Shown: one piece after another, positions 9,929-57,228 of the stretch
How the letters are laid out: every line of letters starts with the position of its first letter
How positions within the stretch are numbered: position 1 is the stretch's first letter
Origin: Alternaria dauci
Taxonomy: Eukaryota > Ascomycota > Dothideomycetes > Pleosporales > Pleosporaceae
Direction: 5' to 3'
Assembly: GCF_042100115.1 (NCBI RefSeq)
Contig: NC_091272.1
Span: forward strand, 2,914,001 to 2,978,000
Length of the DNA: 64,000 nt
Program-made: the position numbers and the translations under genes
Notes under the pieces: generated by a model
Database searches by the model: none
Told to the model about the DNA's origin: nothing
Seen by the model: the letters and a program-made list of their open reading frames with translations, nothing else

Positions 9929-10017
9929 GCATCGGTGGTTTAGTGGTAAAATTAGCCGTTGCCATCCTTCACAGGAGCAGCTTCGGCTAGCCCCGGGTTC
10001 GATTCCCGGCCGATGCA
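9929..10017 (+). tRNA. tRNA-Gly (anticodon GCC) with 18-nt intron
   Basis: The gene folds as a standard cloverleaf: acceptor GCATCGG with CCGATGC, discriminator A at 10017, D arm GTTT/AAAT around AGTGGTA, anticodon stem AGCCG/CGGCT, and T arm CCGGG-TTCGATT-CCCGG. The anticodon GCC is at 9961-9963 minus one base of offset within TTGCCA. An 18-nt intron (9965-9982) sits just 3' of position 37, the canonical eukaryotic site. A and B boxes are intact (TGGTTTAGTGG; GGTTCGATTCC). A T5 run directly follows. Confidence 0.95.
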
Positions 10018-10287: not shown

Positions 10288-10294
10288 TATATAT
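10288..10294 (+). promoter_or_regulatory. TATA-like element upstream of tRNA-Arg
   Basis: TATATAT lies about 38-44 bp before the first base of the tRNA-Arg gene. Upstream TATA elements assist Pol III transcription of tRNA genes in some fungi, so the element supports a transcribed locus. It could also serve a Pol II transcript covering the tRNA. Confidence 0.4.
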
Positions 10295-10331: not shown

Positions 10332-10467
10332 GGAGCCTTGGCGCAATGGTAGCGCGTTGGTTTTCGGTTGAAAACATAAACACCAAAGGTTGTGGGGTAT
10401 GTCTTGTTCTGTCCAACACACGTCTTCAAGTACTAACATACTCAAAGTTCGATCCCCATGGGCTTCG
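10332..10467 (+). tRNA. tRNA-Arg (anticodon UCG) with an anticodon-loop intron and a second insert in the T arm
   Basis: Removing two inserts leaves a full cloverleaf: acceptor GGAGCCT/GGGCTTC (pairs or G-U throughout), discriminator G, D arm GCGC-AATGGTA-GCGC, anticodon stem TTGGT/ACCAA with T33 and anticodon TCG at 10364-10366, and T arm GTGGG-TTCGATC-CCCAT. Insert 1 (10368-10380, 13 nt) is at the canonical 37/38 site. Insert 2 (10397-10447, 51 nt) lies between T-stem base 53 and T54. It begins GTATGT, holds TACTAAC about 12 nt before its end, and ends AAG, like a fungal spliceosomal intron. The A box (TTGGCGCAATGG) is intact. The insert ends in G, so the B box is still read as GTTCGATCC. 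A TTTT run occurs inside the anticodon arm (10361-10364). Whether insert 2 is removed in vivo is unknown; without removal the gene would be a pseudogene. Confidence 0.8.
10397..10447 (+). other. 51-nt spliceosomal-like intron inside tRNA-Arg T arm
   Basis: The insert has a GTATGT 5' site, an exact TACTAAC branch box at 10431-10437 and an AAG 3' end; excision restores a consensus T arm. It matches the lengths (about 50 nt) and donor sequences of protein-coding introns in this window. Eukaryotic nuclear tRNA introns are normally at position 37/38 and cut by the tRNA splicing endonuclease, so this position and sequence are both atypical. Confidence 0.65.
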
Positions 10468-10498
10468 TCTATCCGTCGCGTCTCTGCGACACCATTTC

Positions 10499-10502
10499 TT
10501 TT
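10499..10502 (+). terminator. Possible Pol III terminator of tRNA-Arg
   Basis: TTTT about 32 nt downstream of the discriminator base, preceded by TTTC, is the first T-run after the tRNA-Arg gene. It is short for a fungal Pol III terminator. Confidence 0.45.
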
Positions 10503-27932: not shown

Positions 27933-30900
27933 CTACAAGATAGGCTCCTCGAGCGCACTCTCGAAGTCGTCTTCCCCGTCTTCCCCGTCTTCCCCGTCGT
28001 GCTCAATCGGCGCCTTGATGGGTTTCGGCTTCATATTGGTACGGATCCATGAGACTACAGTCCTCGAGTCTTCAGAGCTCTTGGCCTTGAGCGTTGCAAG
28101 CTCACGTCCTGCCATCGTGAGGACGAATGTGGATTGTTCGGGCCGAGGAAACGTGTTGTACAACACTGATGCTTTGATCGTATCCCATAGACATGCTCCA
28201 GGCGTAAGATACTCCTCCAAAAGAGGCTGAATATGGGAATGGCCTGAAACATCGATGTGATAAGTCAGTATATGTTCCACAAGCAGTTCGTATACGGAAG
28301 ATCTTACCAGGGTCCTCAGGTAGCATAGCCCGGTACCGTTCGTAGCAGGTGTTCGCAACAGTGTTGAAGTGGTTGTTTGTGCTCACATTGCTGTGAACTC
28401 CCGCGTTCCAAGTGTTTTTCACATCTCTCAGTTTGCCAGTCAGAGACAGAAGTTCCTTCTCGATCGTGTTCGACTTCTTCTCACTGAGGTGCTTACTTGG
28501 ATACAGCAACGCGTCATCCCGTTGGATAGCTCTCGAGAAGACGGATTTGAGCATCACCATCGTCTCAATATTGTGCGCTCTGACAACATCGAAGTAGATG
28601 AAGTCTATTGCATGCTTCGACTTGTATTGATACGCCTTCTTCCGGAATTTCTCAACCTCTGCAGGGTCCTTGGTATTGGCACAATCTTCCATCGCGGTCT
28701 TGTAAACTGGCTGCTTCGGCTGTGTTGGTAGTCGGCGTTTCCACCGATCAAAGTCCGCCTGTGTAAAAACGTAACCTTGTTTCGAAGCATCGACTAACAA
28801 GTCATGCATATCATACAGCTGCTCAAGGTTTCGTGAATGAATGCGGTTTTCACTATAAGCCTGCTTCTCCGCAAAGATGGTGACGTGACCAAGTAGCGAA
28901 GGATTGTTGCGGAATTTGAATGCTTTACAGAGAAACTTATCCACGTCCTGAGGGTTGCTGGTATCCATGATATCCTTGAGCTTCTCAGTTCGCGTGTGTA
29001 TACCATATTTTGCAGGATTGGGGGACTCTACTGGCGCTGGCGCGTTCAGAAATGGCTGCACAAGTGTGGGATCCCAGCATACCCAGAACTTATCACCATC
29101 GTAATCACCTCCTTGAAGTTTTCCAGCTAGTGGGTAACGGCCTTTTGACGGAAAAACCACTACATCTACCAAGTGTGATAGCTCAGGGCGTATGGTTGTG
29201 CGCACTTTCTGAATATCTGAGCGACGACAAGCAGGCTGACGAGCAACCAAAGCCTCCATATCTCTAAGGCAAAGGTACTTTTCGTCTGTCTTCTCGTCGA
29301 CGAATGAAGATGAGAATAGCACCTGGATTTCACCTGGCTCCAAAACGCCAAAAGGATCCGCTACACCATACAAAAAGGCCGATTTGGCAAGAGGTACCCG
29401 CAGCTTGGATTCCTGAGATATCTGCTTTGTCTGAATGAAGCGCTCAAGGATTTTGGCAAGGTATGGGAACTCGGTGGGCAAAAAACCCGATTCCAGCAAG
29501 AACTTTAGCTTTTCCTCCAGAGACAATGGCAGTGCACCCTGCCAAGAGGGTTGAGTTTGGGTCTTTGCACCGTTCCGATGGACCCAATCGTAAGTCTTGA
29601 CAGGATCTGGAAGCAAGTCTAGCAGCTTTTTGCGTTCCATATCGAGACATTCCCTCATAAGGGCACAAATAGCTTCCATCTTTACGCCTCGATCAATTAG
29701 GATAGGAATGAACAATATATGTAGTTCCGACGGTGACGGTACGGAACTGTAGTTGGACACCTCGAAAGTGCGGTGATGACGTGGCTGGTCGTCAGGTGGG
29801 TGAAATTTCCGTTGACTCTGGTTAATTTTGATCCAATAGTCGAGATGATAAGGATCCTTGGTAAATGACTCTGCACTAACGATCCAGAGTCCCTTTGCCC
29901 CACCAATTCGTCCCTGGAATGCACTCGGCAAAGGACCAGAAACTTCAGTAACTTTCTTGTATAGCTGCCAGATGACTAATGCGGCACCCACAGATATAAT
30001 TGAACATCCGTCATTCATGACTTCAGTTTTGAAAAAAGACGGCCATTGTAGTTTTGGATCGTTAAATCGTGCGTCTTCAGGGTCGGTTGTAGCCATATCA
30101 TCATCCACGTAGATGATTTGCGATATGTCAAAACATAATGTTGGAACAGTTCGAGAAAGCCCGAGTTCGATGCGAGCAAAGACTTTGCAAAAGCCTTGAT
30201 TCTCGTTGGTATCGAGCGGTAGGAACCGATGAAGCATCTCACCCACTGAGCACGGTCGCTCAATGTCACATCCTTCTGTCGCGAAGAGCACAATCCTTTT
30301 GTCGTGGTCTATATCCTTCCGACGGGTATTCTTGCCCCTCTTCAAATCTTCAGTGTGGAAGACTCTCCATTTACGGCCCAAGAATGAATGTTCGACAAGG
30401 AGCCATGCTTGCCATTGACTCTGAACTTGTTGCATTTGACTGATGTTGAAACGGTTCGTCTTGGAAGAATTGAATTTTGGCGTGTGCAGGTATAGGAAGC
30501 GGTCTGAACCAAACATCCGCTCAAGACGACACGATTTGTCTGCCTGTACCGGTGACAATGACAGATTAACAACAGGACCAGTATCTTTATGGCTGAAATT
30601 GATGCGTCCTTTGAACGTATAACCGTCAAACTTGCGTTTCGCCGCTAGCCAGAGGCGACTTGACTCACGCAGCTTCACACGTGCAATATCGCGGTTTCTC
30701 TCGATGAAACACCAAAAGGCTTCTGAATCAGAAGACACGGTAGGTACGTCCATTCCATGAACCAACTTCCGTAGTGGGACAGAGTGTTCTATTGCCAGAC
30801 GTTGACAGACGAAGAGGATATGGTAGGGAATATGCACTAATGACCTAGGAAGTTCATCCACAAAGAGATTTTGGTTGGGTAGATTGCGTACTTCGTATGG

Positions 30901-32320
30901 CATCTTTAGCGGAGATTTCGTGACAAGAGACGTCTGCTCTTGATGGCTTGATACTCCGTTGGATGGGGGTGGTGTCGAAGTCAATACATGGGTTTGCGGA
31001 TCGCTCTCATTGGTAACGAGGGGCGCTTTGGAGTTTCCTTGCCTCGCATCTGGAGTTACTTCCGACTCATTCTGCTTGGTCTGAACCTCGAAAGAGGCCT
31101 GAAGGAGACCATCTTCATCGATAGAACCAAACGTCGACCTACTTTGACCACTGCTTCCCTGAGAATAGACTTCATTAAGATCTCGCTGAATGTCTTGTTC
31201 GTCCACTTCAGCTCCTGAACGCGACATAGCTTGGTAGAGATCGCGATCGTTTAGGGAAACCATGGTAGCCGAACTGGTCCTTGTCAATCTGGGTTTCGGA
31301 AGGTTCGTTCCCTGAAAATCTCTGACAGCATCGGACGTGAACGAAGTGTTCGTGGTAGCCGCCGTCTCCTGAGAAGAAAAAGCAGTGTTGTTGAAAGATG
31401 TGTTGACTGAGGATGAGCCTGAAGGTACAACCTGAAAAGATCGAGCCATGTTGAGAGTCGGCTTCACGAATTGTGGCGGCGCGATAGGCGAAGATTTGAG
31501 AGACCTGACAGCCTGCTTCCCTTTGGAGGTCTTGGTCAACTTTGCCGAGTTCTCAGACTGATCGTAGCTTTCGGAAGGCCTTTTCTTGGTGATGTGTAAA
31601 GAAATATGATTACTTGCCTGATAAAGCATCTTTGTTGTTCTAGTAGACGGTGATGGCGATGGCGATGGCGGTCGTGGTGTTCCGAATTCTTGGTCCATCT
31701 CATCCTCGGTGTCAACGTCTGTAGGTGACCCTGGATCGATGGCTGTCGCATAAGACTCACGCTCATCTTGCTGAGCGTCGAGCGAACGGGTTGTTGCCTG
31801 TGGAATTGACTTTACTCCTACGTTCGCGTTAGTTCTTGCATAACACTTTTCCCAACCTCATCTCTGCAAGCATGCTGGTGCGGTAAAATTGCATGTAGAA
31901 ACTTGCAGGACGTAAAAAGTAAGGGAACTTACTACTCGAGGCTGCCATCAGATTCTTGGCCGGCTCATCTTTTGGCTTCCTACTCCTTGGGACCAGCTGG
32001 CTCTCCTGCGTGTCAGACAGAATTTTATGAAGATTCACTAGGCGATCTTCGCGTGTTAGACTCGGCGCAAGATCTTCAAAGTCCCTGATCGCATGATCCA
32101 GGGCTGGCCGTGCTCTGTAGAACAGAAACTTGACAAGCGCATAGATCTTATCGGGAGCATCATCCTTGTTCGATCTCTTAGGCGACCATTCAGCGCCACG
32201 AAGCTTCAAGCCAATCTTCCATTCTTTTTCCAGTGAGCAAATCAGGTCGTCAATGGCTGCTCCAGGGCGGAAGTGCGGAGTTCCCGGTAGCGAAGCGGCA
32301 GGACCACCGTTACCCGCCAT
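27933..32320 (-). CDS. RNA-dependent RNA polymerase of the RNA-silencing pathway
   Basis: Exons 32320-31933, 31817-28308 and 28243-27933 join in phase and give 1402 aa. Residues about 130-330 are Ser/Thr-rich and probably disordered. The catalytic core is clear: PFGVLEPGEIQVLFSSSF, VVFPSKGRYPLAGKLQGG, then the DYDGD metal-binding motif near residue 1035 (GGDYDGDKFWVCWDP). This is the eukaryotic RdRP family (Neurospora QDE-1/SAD-1, plant RDR), which makes double-stranded RNA for Dicer. Which paralogue class this is cannot be decided by eye. The third exon ends in an EDG repeat tail. Intron 1 (115 bp) is the least certain junction; the phase and the Asp/Glu-rich continuation (TTRSLDAQQDERE) support it. 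Confidence 0.9.
27971..27997. repeat. Triple 9-bp tandem repeat in the RdRP C-terminus
   Basis: CTTCCCCGT is repeated three times exactly. On the coding strand it encodes repeated Glu-Asp-Gly in the acidic tail of the polymerase. Perfect repetition suggests recent slippage and likely length polymorphism. Confidence 0.8.
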
Positions 32321-55860: not shown

Positions 55861-57228
55861 TTAGACGGCAACAGCCTGAGGCCCGTAACCAGGTGCCATG
55901 TAGTAGGGCGGGTGCCTCTGCACGCAGTAGGCGCATCCGCAGCTGAGACCATGCTGGTTCCAAGCCGACGGGGTGTACTGTGTGGAGTAGGCGGGTGGGC
56001 CGTAGTTGGACTGTTGCTGAAGCACTTGCGCAGAGGCGGGCTGAGACAAGGGAGGGAAACCGAACATGGTGCGACGCGAGTAACCTTCGGCCGGAGCCCA
56101 GGTTCCCGTTGTGCCATAGTACTCTGGGGTAGTCGGGCCCGTGGTGGGTGCTGACGCAGGAGAGTGCTCGCTAGCGGACCGCCATGGGTCGTACTGCGAG
56201 TAGGTTGGAGGGTTGTAGGCCGACTGGGCCGACTTGGGTACAAAGTCGTACGGGGGAGTGTAGGCCTGCTGCATCGGTAGAGGAGGGAGCGGCTTGTTGG
56301 GGTTGAACGAGCGTCGCTGTACCGACGTATCGATGGGGCTAAGCTTGTTACTGCGGCCGGAACGCGCAGCAGCGGTGTTCTGGTAGTCCTTCCAGTGCTC
56401 TGACCACGATGTCCAACCGTGTTGCTCCGTAGGATCGCGGTGAAGCCTGAACTTGATGGCTACAAGCCACTCGAGCTCAAGCTCGTTCAACTCGTGTACC
56501 TGAATGCCGCTGACCTCAGACCAGGAACGGTTGATGAAGGTGTTGTCGTCCAGGAACTTGCTGCCGAGCACTAGTGCGATAGTGAGGAGACGGAACAGGT
56601 GGGTGTCGGTCTTGGGCTCGTGAGCTAGCATGGGCATCCTGCTGGACAGATAGTACATGCTGAGCAGGATAGTGGCAGAGGGCAGACGCGTGGCGCAGAG
56701 AACCTGGTGTACCCACTTGCGGAACGACGAAGGCATCATGCGACCAGGCGTGATGAGTCGTAGGGCGGTCTCGCAGACGAAGTCGGTCATAACGTCCATG
56801 TCGTAATCCAGCTTCGCCGACACACCGCCGACAGGCTTCTCTTCCTTGGCCGGCTGGTTCATTCGCTGGTTGTACTCGTGCACGCGCTGCTGTTGCATAG
56901 CCGCCTCTGCCATGGAGTGGCCGGACTGTGCGCGCATGGGTGGCAGTGTGGTTGCGCCCATGGCATCGTAGAATGAGCTCGCGGGCGGAAGGCTAGGAGG
57001 GGCATTGCTCAGGTAGGTGCCGGCCTGCGGGTACATGGGTGGCATGGCGATGGCCAGCTGACCGTAGCGGTCTGCGAAGTCGTAACCATCATCTTGCTGC
57101 CGGATCGTAGGGCCAGCGTACGCAGGCTGCTGCGGTGGGTATGATGCGCCACAGGCAGAGTGGTAGCTGGGGACGAACTCCTGGGGAGAGAGCCGCGGCA
57201 TGTTATGCCGGGGGTAGAAGGAGGGCAT
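55861..57228 (-). CDS. Pho80/Clg1-like cyclin
   Basis: Single exon, 455 aa from the ATG at 57228; an ATG nine codons later is also possible. Residues 1-135 are Pro/Gln/Tyr-rich. The cyclin box is at about 145-255: DVMTDFVCETALRLI, SSFRKWVHQVLCATRLPSAT, LLTIALVLGSKFLDDNTFIN, then SWSEVSGIQVHELNELELEW and LVAIKFRLH, the pattern of the PCL/Pho80 family. The C-terminal 200 residues are Pro/Tyr/Gln-rich with a short Cys pair (CGCAYC). Clg1 in yeast binds Pho85 and Kin-type partners; the CDK partner here is inferred. Confidence 0.87.
   Translation of the reverse strand: MPSFYPRHNMPRLSPQEFVPSYHSACGASYPPQQPAYAGPTIRQQDDGYDFADRYGQLAIAMPPMYPQAGTYLSNAPPSLPPASSFYDAMGATTLPPMRAQSGHSMAEAAMQQQRVHEYNQRMNQPAKEEKPVGGVSAKLDYDMDVMTDFVCETALRLITPGRMMPSSFRKWVHQVLCATRLPSATILLSMYYLSSRMPMLAHEPKTDTHLFRLLTIALVLGSKFLDDNTFINRSWSEVSGIQVHELNELELEWLVAIKFRLHRDPTEQHGWTSWSEHWKDYQNTAAARSGRSNKLSPIDTSVQRRSFNPNKPLPPLPMQQAYTPPYDFVPKSAQSAYNPPTYSQYDPWRSASEHSPASAPTTGPTTPEYYGTTGTWAPAEGYSRRTMFGFPPLSQPASAQVLQQQSNYGPPAYSTQYTPSAWNQHGLSCGCAYCVQRHPPYYMAPGYGPQAVAV

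Follow-up and report, generated by a model that had tools for sequence, protein, structure and literature searches.

We found that the window, the whole stretch of 64,000 nucleotides of Alternaria dauci DNA under analysis (C1:2914001-2978000), carries on its forward strand a tRNA-Arg(UCG) gene (10332-10467) interrupted twice, by a 13-nt intron at position 37/38 and by a 51-nt insert in the T arm. With a probability of about 80%, the sequence evidence points to a working nuclear gene that would be transcribed by RNA polymerase III (Pol III) and whose T-arm insert would be spliced out by the spliceosome. T-arm inserts, located at 53/54 or 52/53, are present in at least five nuclear tRNA genes of this genome (34.9 Mb searched, in 10 contigs), namely two for Arg(UCG) and one each for Arg(CCU), Ile(AAU), and Ser(CGA). 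As far as is known, nuclear tRNAs and mRNAs lose their introns through separate machineries; a tRNA dependent on the spliceosome, if confirmed, would breach this division between tRNA and mRNA splicing and tie tRNA supply to mRNA splicing.

Table 1 Parts of the interrupted tRNA-Arg(UCG) gene (window positions) and the other interrupted tRNA genes (contig positions)
Feature	Location	Strand	Remarks
TATATAT, TATA-like element	10288..10294	+	starts 44 nt upstream of the window tRNA
Exon 1 of tRNA-Arg(UCG)	10332..10367	+	positions 1-37: acceptor 5' strand, D arm, anticodon loop with TCG
Canonical 37/38 tRNA intron	10368..10380	+	13 nt, same sequence in the second UCG copy
Exon 2	10381..10396	+	position 38, anticodon-stem 3' strand, variable loop, T-stem 5' strand, terminal GTGGG
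Spliceosomal-type intron	10397..10447	+	51 nt, between positions 53 and 54, last bases AAG
5' splice site GTATGT	10397..10402	+	GTAAGT in the second UCG copy
Branch-site box TACTAAC	10431..10437	+	followed by 10 nt to the 3' end of the insert
3' splice site AG	10446..10447	+	
AGTTCGATCC, B-box-like promoter element	10446..10455	+	rebuilt over the border between the insert and exon 3
Exon 3	10448..10467	+	T loop, T-stem 3' strand, acceptor 3' strand, discriminator G
TTTCTTTT, possible Pol III terminator	10495..10502	+	T4 run starts 32 nt downstream; weak
Second tRNA-Arg(UCG) gene	C1:4510157-4510293	-	Rfam 22.5 bits, below gathering
tRNA-Arg(CCU) gene	C5:2292900-2293022		Rfam 44.7 bits
tRNA-Ile(AAU) gene	C1:4187830-4187958		Rfam 45.2 bits
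tRNA-Ser(CGA) gene	C1:2406974-2407125		additional 21-nt anticodon-loop intron; found by branch-site pattern

In its unspliced form, the window locus scores barely above the gathering score of the Rfam tRNA model RF00005 (30.3 versus 29 bits) and gives no tRNA with ARAGORN. Deletion of both pieces at the borders in Table 1 yields a 72-nt tRNA-Arg(TCG) with a full cloverleaf, in which ARAGORN finds every stem paired, the T-loop TTCGATC, and the discriminator G. The first-pass annotation, made from the letters alone, had given exactly these borders and described the same four paired stems, T-loop, and discriminator, and its account of the second insert (GTATGT at the start, an exact TACTAAC, AAG at the end) agrees with the sequence. 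When the T-arm insert alone is deleted, ARAGORN shifts the 13-nt intron and labels both UCG genes Leu(taa); they are identified here as Arg(UCG) because the 13-nt intron is placed at the canonical 37/38 site. The minimum-energy fold of the spliced 72-mer is also the cloverleaf, with a z-score of only -0.43, the energy itself being little informative. Stretches of the form GTANGT...TACTAAC...AG and of insert-like size occur twice in the 64-kb window, both strands counted, and all 10 order-2 Markov controls lack them; one is the present insert, and the other (52237, minus strand, 46 nt) is probably an mRNA intron. A looser intron pattern was not enriched in the window (15 matches versus a control mean of 9.7), and the lengths of the T-arm inserts, 50-55 nt, compare with a median of 53 nt among these loose candidates, a set not enriched over chance.

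A further UCG-decoding gene, which the first-pass annotation had proposed to look for, was located by a whole-genome search and is itself interrupted at the identical place. Outside the insert, the two copies are equal at 85 of 85 nt (72 nt of exon plus the 13 nt of the anticodon intron), whereas inside it, where the second copy has 52 nt, 35 of the 52 aligned columns are equal and 17 differ (Fisher p 1.0e-8). Both inserts nevertheless keep GTANGT, TACTAAC, the 10-nt spacing, and AG, and BLAST of the 300-nt flanks on each side gave only matches of 7-13 nt. This pattern indicates that the UCG exons are preserved and that the insert has apparently drifted while its splice signals stayed. The relaxed exon selection expected of a pseudogene is not seen in this comparison within one genome, where the UCG exons agree at 72/72 positions and the stem changes described below are compensated.

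The interrupted Arg(CCU) and Ile(AAU) genes came to light without the use of splice motifs: among 60 stretches, they were matches to the Rfam tRNA model in which ARAGORN recognised no tRNA. ARAGORN calls a tRNA in none of the five unspliced genes and in all five once the T-arm insert is deleted. In the gene order of Table 1, beginning with the window copy, the inserts measure 51, 52, 51, 55, and 50 nt and start with GTATGT, GTAAGT, GTAAGT, GTAAGC, and GTAAGA; all five thus begin with GTA(A/T)G, resembling the GTRNGT 5' splice site of U2-type spliceosomal introns, with the last two deviating from T at position 6. A CTAAY branch site, likewise of U2 type, lies near the 3' AG in 5/5 inserts, at 10, 10, 10, 12, and 8 nt from the insert end. 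Moreover, a search that required the 5' splice site and the B box but ignored the branch site again yielded these five genes among its 59 matches, and CTAAY stood at the expected distance in 5/5 interrupted tRNAs versus 5/54 of the other matches (Fisher p 5e-5); the 26 of these 54 that were scanned with Rfam or ARAGORN contained no interrupted tRNA. Since the pattern counts did not exceed those of reversed controls (40 versus 81, 11 versus 19, 51 versus 87, and 8 versus 30), the evidence lies in the tRNA context. Among the 47 of 51 matches of the branch-site searches that were inspected, five were the interrupted genes (two UCG, Arg(CCU), Ile, and Ser). Six others proved to be intronless tRNAs containing CTAAT by chance (four for Ile and two in a tRNA cluster on contig C3), and in another, the Ser gene L151, the intron lies in the anticodon loop. 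The searches were confined to T-arm inserts with a GTANG start, the searched branch sites, and a usual B box, and pass over other kinds.

Apart from these signals, no clear similarity is seen between the inserts of one family and those of another, and the Arg(UCG) tRNA is more similar to the intronless Arg(CCG) (54/72 identical) than to the interrupted Arg(CCU) (46/72). A 25-base pattern had no matches in the genome contigs beyond this genome. Two 21-base matches in viral contigs (L086:12267-12287 and L087:5969-5989) were set aside as irrelevant, these contigs being phage-like by their ORFs and the tRNA of bacterial type, with the shared D-arm bases coincidental.

Pairing across the insert is also retained. 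The interrupted Ile(AAU) differs from two mutually identical intronless copies (L018 and L019) at 4/74 positions, and these differences make up two compensated T-stem pairs (C-G to A-T and A-T to G-C), each with one side before and the other after the insert. Between the interrupted Arg(CCU) and its intronless counterpart (L093), 17/72 positions differ, 16 of them in stems, with every affected pair still standard; the T stem has two double-sided changes and the anticodon stem has four. The compensated T-stem changes may be older than the inserts. The minimum-energy folds of the spliced Arg(CCU) and Ile tRNAs (72- and 74-mers) are not cloverleaves, and energy folding is not decisive.

In all five genes, the terminal AG of the insert abuts (G)TTCRANNC, so that the resulting AG(G)TTCRANNC rebuilds the B box; by the B-box consensus, we take both this motif and the window element AGTTCGATCC to be B boxes. 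The remark in the first-pass annotation that the insert ends in G and keeps the Pol III B box therefore extends from the window copy to the whole set. A downstream T run is likewise kept in 5/5 genes (T4 to T8, 2-32 nt downstream), being T4 at +32 in the window copy, T6 at +27 in the second UCG copy, T5 at +6 in Ser, T6 at +2 in Arg(CCU), and T8 at +17 in Ile. The run of the window gene is only T4, versus at least five T in all 20 other tRNA genes compared. The T runs of the two UCG copies come late compared with those 20 genes, but long 3' trailers were rejected as a mark of the interrupted genes, 7 of 23 further tRNA genes having their first T4 at +27 to +47. Upstream AT-rich elements are clear for the window copy, Arg(CCU), and Ser, and are present at many, not all, other tRNA genes; the second UCG copy carries TTATTATGG and lacks any TATA string in the 80 nt before it. 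The TATA-like element that had been cited against simple decay is thus present at the window copy, and the argument drawn from it is weakened by the second copy. From these signals, Pol III transcription of the interrupted genes is likely.

An intact UCG copy elsewhere, which the first-pass annotation had named as part of a case for a pseudogene, was not found. The 72-nt spliced query retrieved no UCG locus from the whole genome beyond the two interrupted copies, and an anticodon-plus-B-box pattern gave 94 matches versus 226 in reversed controls, of which the 63 checked by ARAGORN (30 + 33) contained no tRNA, the search being not exhaustive. In the genome-wide search with the Rfam tRNA model, 63 of 931 candidates were scored and the two tRNAs of the window itself were missed, so that its tRNA set is incomplete. 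Two of the interrupted families also have intronless copies (four for Ile(AAU) and one for Arg(CCU)), and given these sisters the interrupted Ile(AAU) and Arg(CCU) copies could be dispensable. For Arg(CCG), one gene was encountered (L016). A pattern for Arg(ACG) gave 11 matches versus 26 in controls and did not locate such a gene, the one match inspected (L090) being tRNA-like and not Arg(ACG). As far as codon counts go, a need for UCG decoding is suggested by 58 CGA and 41 CGG among the 5123 codons of eight mechanical ORFs. L090 (C4:1060600-1060780, minus strand) is a 112-nt tRNA-like gene that scores 38.1 bits with Rfam and whose anticodon region holds a long insert; ARAGORN reads the gene as Val(tac) with a 20-nt intron.

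The internal A and B boxes very likely drive Pol III transcription of the pre-tRNA. If the T-arm inserts are indeed removed by the spliceosome, it would excise the GT-AG intron with its CTAAY branch site from this precursor, and the tRNA splicing endonuclease and ligase would separately remove the 37/38 intron where present (UCG twice and Ser). RNase Z and the export receptor read the T arm; as this arm is divided by the insert, T-arm splicing would be expected to come first, inside the nucleus. The shared position would be best explained by a promoter filter acting on independent gains: an insert ending in AG before (G)TTCRANNC would rebuild the B box, and one inside either box would break that box. 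Independent gains are suggested because the inserts of the families are not evidently related beyond their signals and Arg(UCG) is nearer to the intronless Arg(CCG) than to the interrupted Arg(CCU); spread of the insert from tRNA gene to tRNA gene is conceivable. The two full-length U6 genes of this genome contain no insert, and splicing of Pol III transcripts is not otherwise evident here. We consider it somewhat more likely than not that the spliceosome serves as an obligate tRNA-maturation enzyme for the whole Arg(UCG) pool and for a share of the Arg(CCU), Ser(CGA), and Ile(AAU) tRNAs, introns having entered repeatedly at the site that rebuilds the B box.

Two readings had been offered by the first-pass annotation, namely splicing by the spliceosome and inactivation by a newly landed intron. 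The predicted spliceosomal removal gains support from the drifted second copy, the recurrence, and the kept pairing, and inactivation lost ground. Pseudogenes disabled by intron insertion and never spliced would fit the existence of intronless Ile(AAU) and Arg(CCU) copies, and also the view, expressed in the available part of PMC4090602, that eukaryotic T-arm insertions mostly affect one of many synonymous genes and are supposed pseudogenes. Nevertheless, this explanation is decidedly improbable, considering that the UCG exons are fully equal beside strongly differing inserts, that stem changes are compensated in Ile(AAU) and Arg(CCU), that the spliced query and 63/94 pattern matches revealed no uninterrupted UCG copy, and that the inserts recur at one site that preserves the B box.

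It is unlikely, too, that the inserts are ectopic tRNA introns handled by the usual tRNA pathway, in which the tRNA splicing endonuclease cuts and tRNA ligase joins. An intron exactly at 53/54 in the T arm is described for Cyanidioschyzon merolae tRNA-Ile(UAU) in the accessible text of PMC9602550, and 53/54 introns occur in archaea according to that of PMC4090602; the inserts here lie at 53/54 or 52/53 and not at the endonuclease-typical 37/38, and in a simple bulge-helix-bulge test they formed 2, 1, 1, 0, and 2 of 4 central pairs, which does not set them apart from the sole control, the 37/38 intron of the same gene, with 2/4. A structure-reading enzyme, however, leaves unexplained the GT, the CTAAY at 8-12 nt, and the AG, found in 5/5 inserts and kept despite drift; the unspliced UCG precursor folds no better in energy than shuffled sequences (z -0.27). 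Splicing of Pol II transcripts, with a tRNA-like product that either does not serve as a tRNA or is freed from a host transcript made by Pol II, accords with the usual occurrence of spliceosomal introns in Pol II transcripts and with the mere T4 run downstream of the window copy. It seems hardly credible in view of the B box preserved in 5/5 genes and the T5, T6, and T8 runs following Ser, Arg(CCU), and Ile at 6, 2, and 17 nt; the window, moreover, has no ORF of at least 300 aa between 7216 and 14429, where short or spliced genes are still possible.

A literature search turned up no paper describing spliceosomal introns in nuclear tRNA genes; its coverage mostly left out preprints and subscription papers, and a prior report is possible. 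The nearest parallel is the U6 snRNA of fission yeast, a Pol III RNA from which an mRNA-type intron is removed by the spliceosome, and which resembles the present genes as a Pol III small-RNA gene with a GT-AG and branch-site intron (PMC10484740, in the portion available). U6 acts inside the spliceosome, which suggests an origin by reverse splicing, whereas tRNAs are not spliceosome parts; further, four tRNA families are interrupted here at one position in a genome whose U6 genes lack an insert. As here, nuclear tRNA genes of C. merolae can have a second intron that interrupts the T arm at 53/54, but the accessible text of PMC9602550 and PMC3978253 describes such introns as being of bulge-helix-bulge type and belonging to the endonuclease pathway, in contrast to the spliceosomal splice and branch sites found here; the removal mechanism of the C. 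merolae 53/54 intron is not established, as far as that text of PMC9602550 goes. T-arm inserts are also present in tRNAs of the cryptophyte nucleomorph of Guillardia theta, together with D-arm inserts, and their removal was confirmed by RT-PCR; at 3-24 nt, compared with 50-55 nt here, they are too short for spliceosomal introns, and their mechanism is given as unknown (PMC4090602, in its accessible part). The mRNA-type introns of ascomycete nuclear rDNA are likewise of spliceosomal type and lie in non-coding RNA genes of related fungi read by another polymerase, with rRNA and Pol I there and tRNA and Pol III here (compare the lichen paper PMC8527467).

Spliceosomal removal, if true, would couple mRNA splicing capacity to the decoding of particular codons, and the interrupted genes would offer a clean test of spliceosome action on uncapped Pol III transcripts besides U6. 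For intron gain, four tRNA families interrupted at one position suggest a target preference or a promoter filter. For annotation, such genes in other fungi may be listed as missing or as pseudogenes, because ARAGORN misses all five unspliced genes and the non-canonical intron search of tRNAscan-SE 2.0 is described for its archaeal model in the available text of PMC8450103.

Several further features were observed. A tRNA-Gly(GCC) gene with an 18-nt anticodon-loop intron (9929-10017, plus strand; Rfam 51.6 bits) lies 314 nt upstream of tRNA-Arg(UCG). The window also contains an ORF at 55861-57228 (minus strand) that is cyclin-like and shares 98% identity with a protein of Alternaria alternata, and a 1198-aa ORF (28102-31698, minus strand) with a GGDYDGDKFW motif, by which it presumably resembles the RNA-dependent RNA polymerases of RNA silencing. 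The tRNA cluster on C3 (C3:3342000-3400000; L003, L010-L012, L017, and L020-L025) is dense, confined to one strand, and near the end of a 3.45-Mb contig; its set is organelle-like, with a TCA anticodon and several CAT, and by this gene set it is probably mitochondrial in nature, either mitochondrial DNA joined to a chromosome in assembly or a nuclear insertion.
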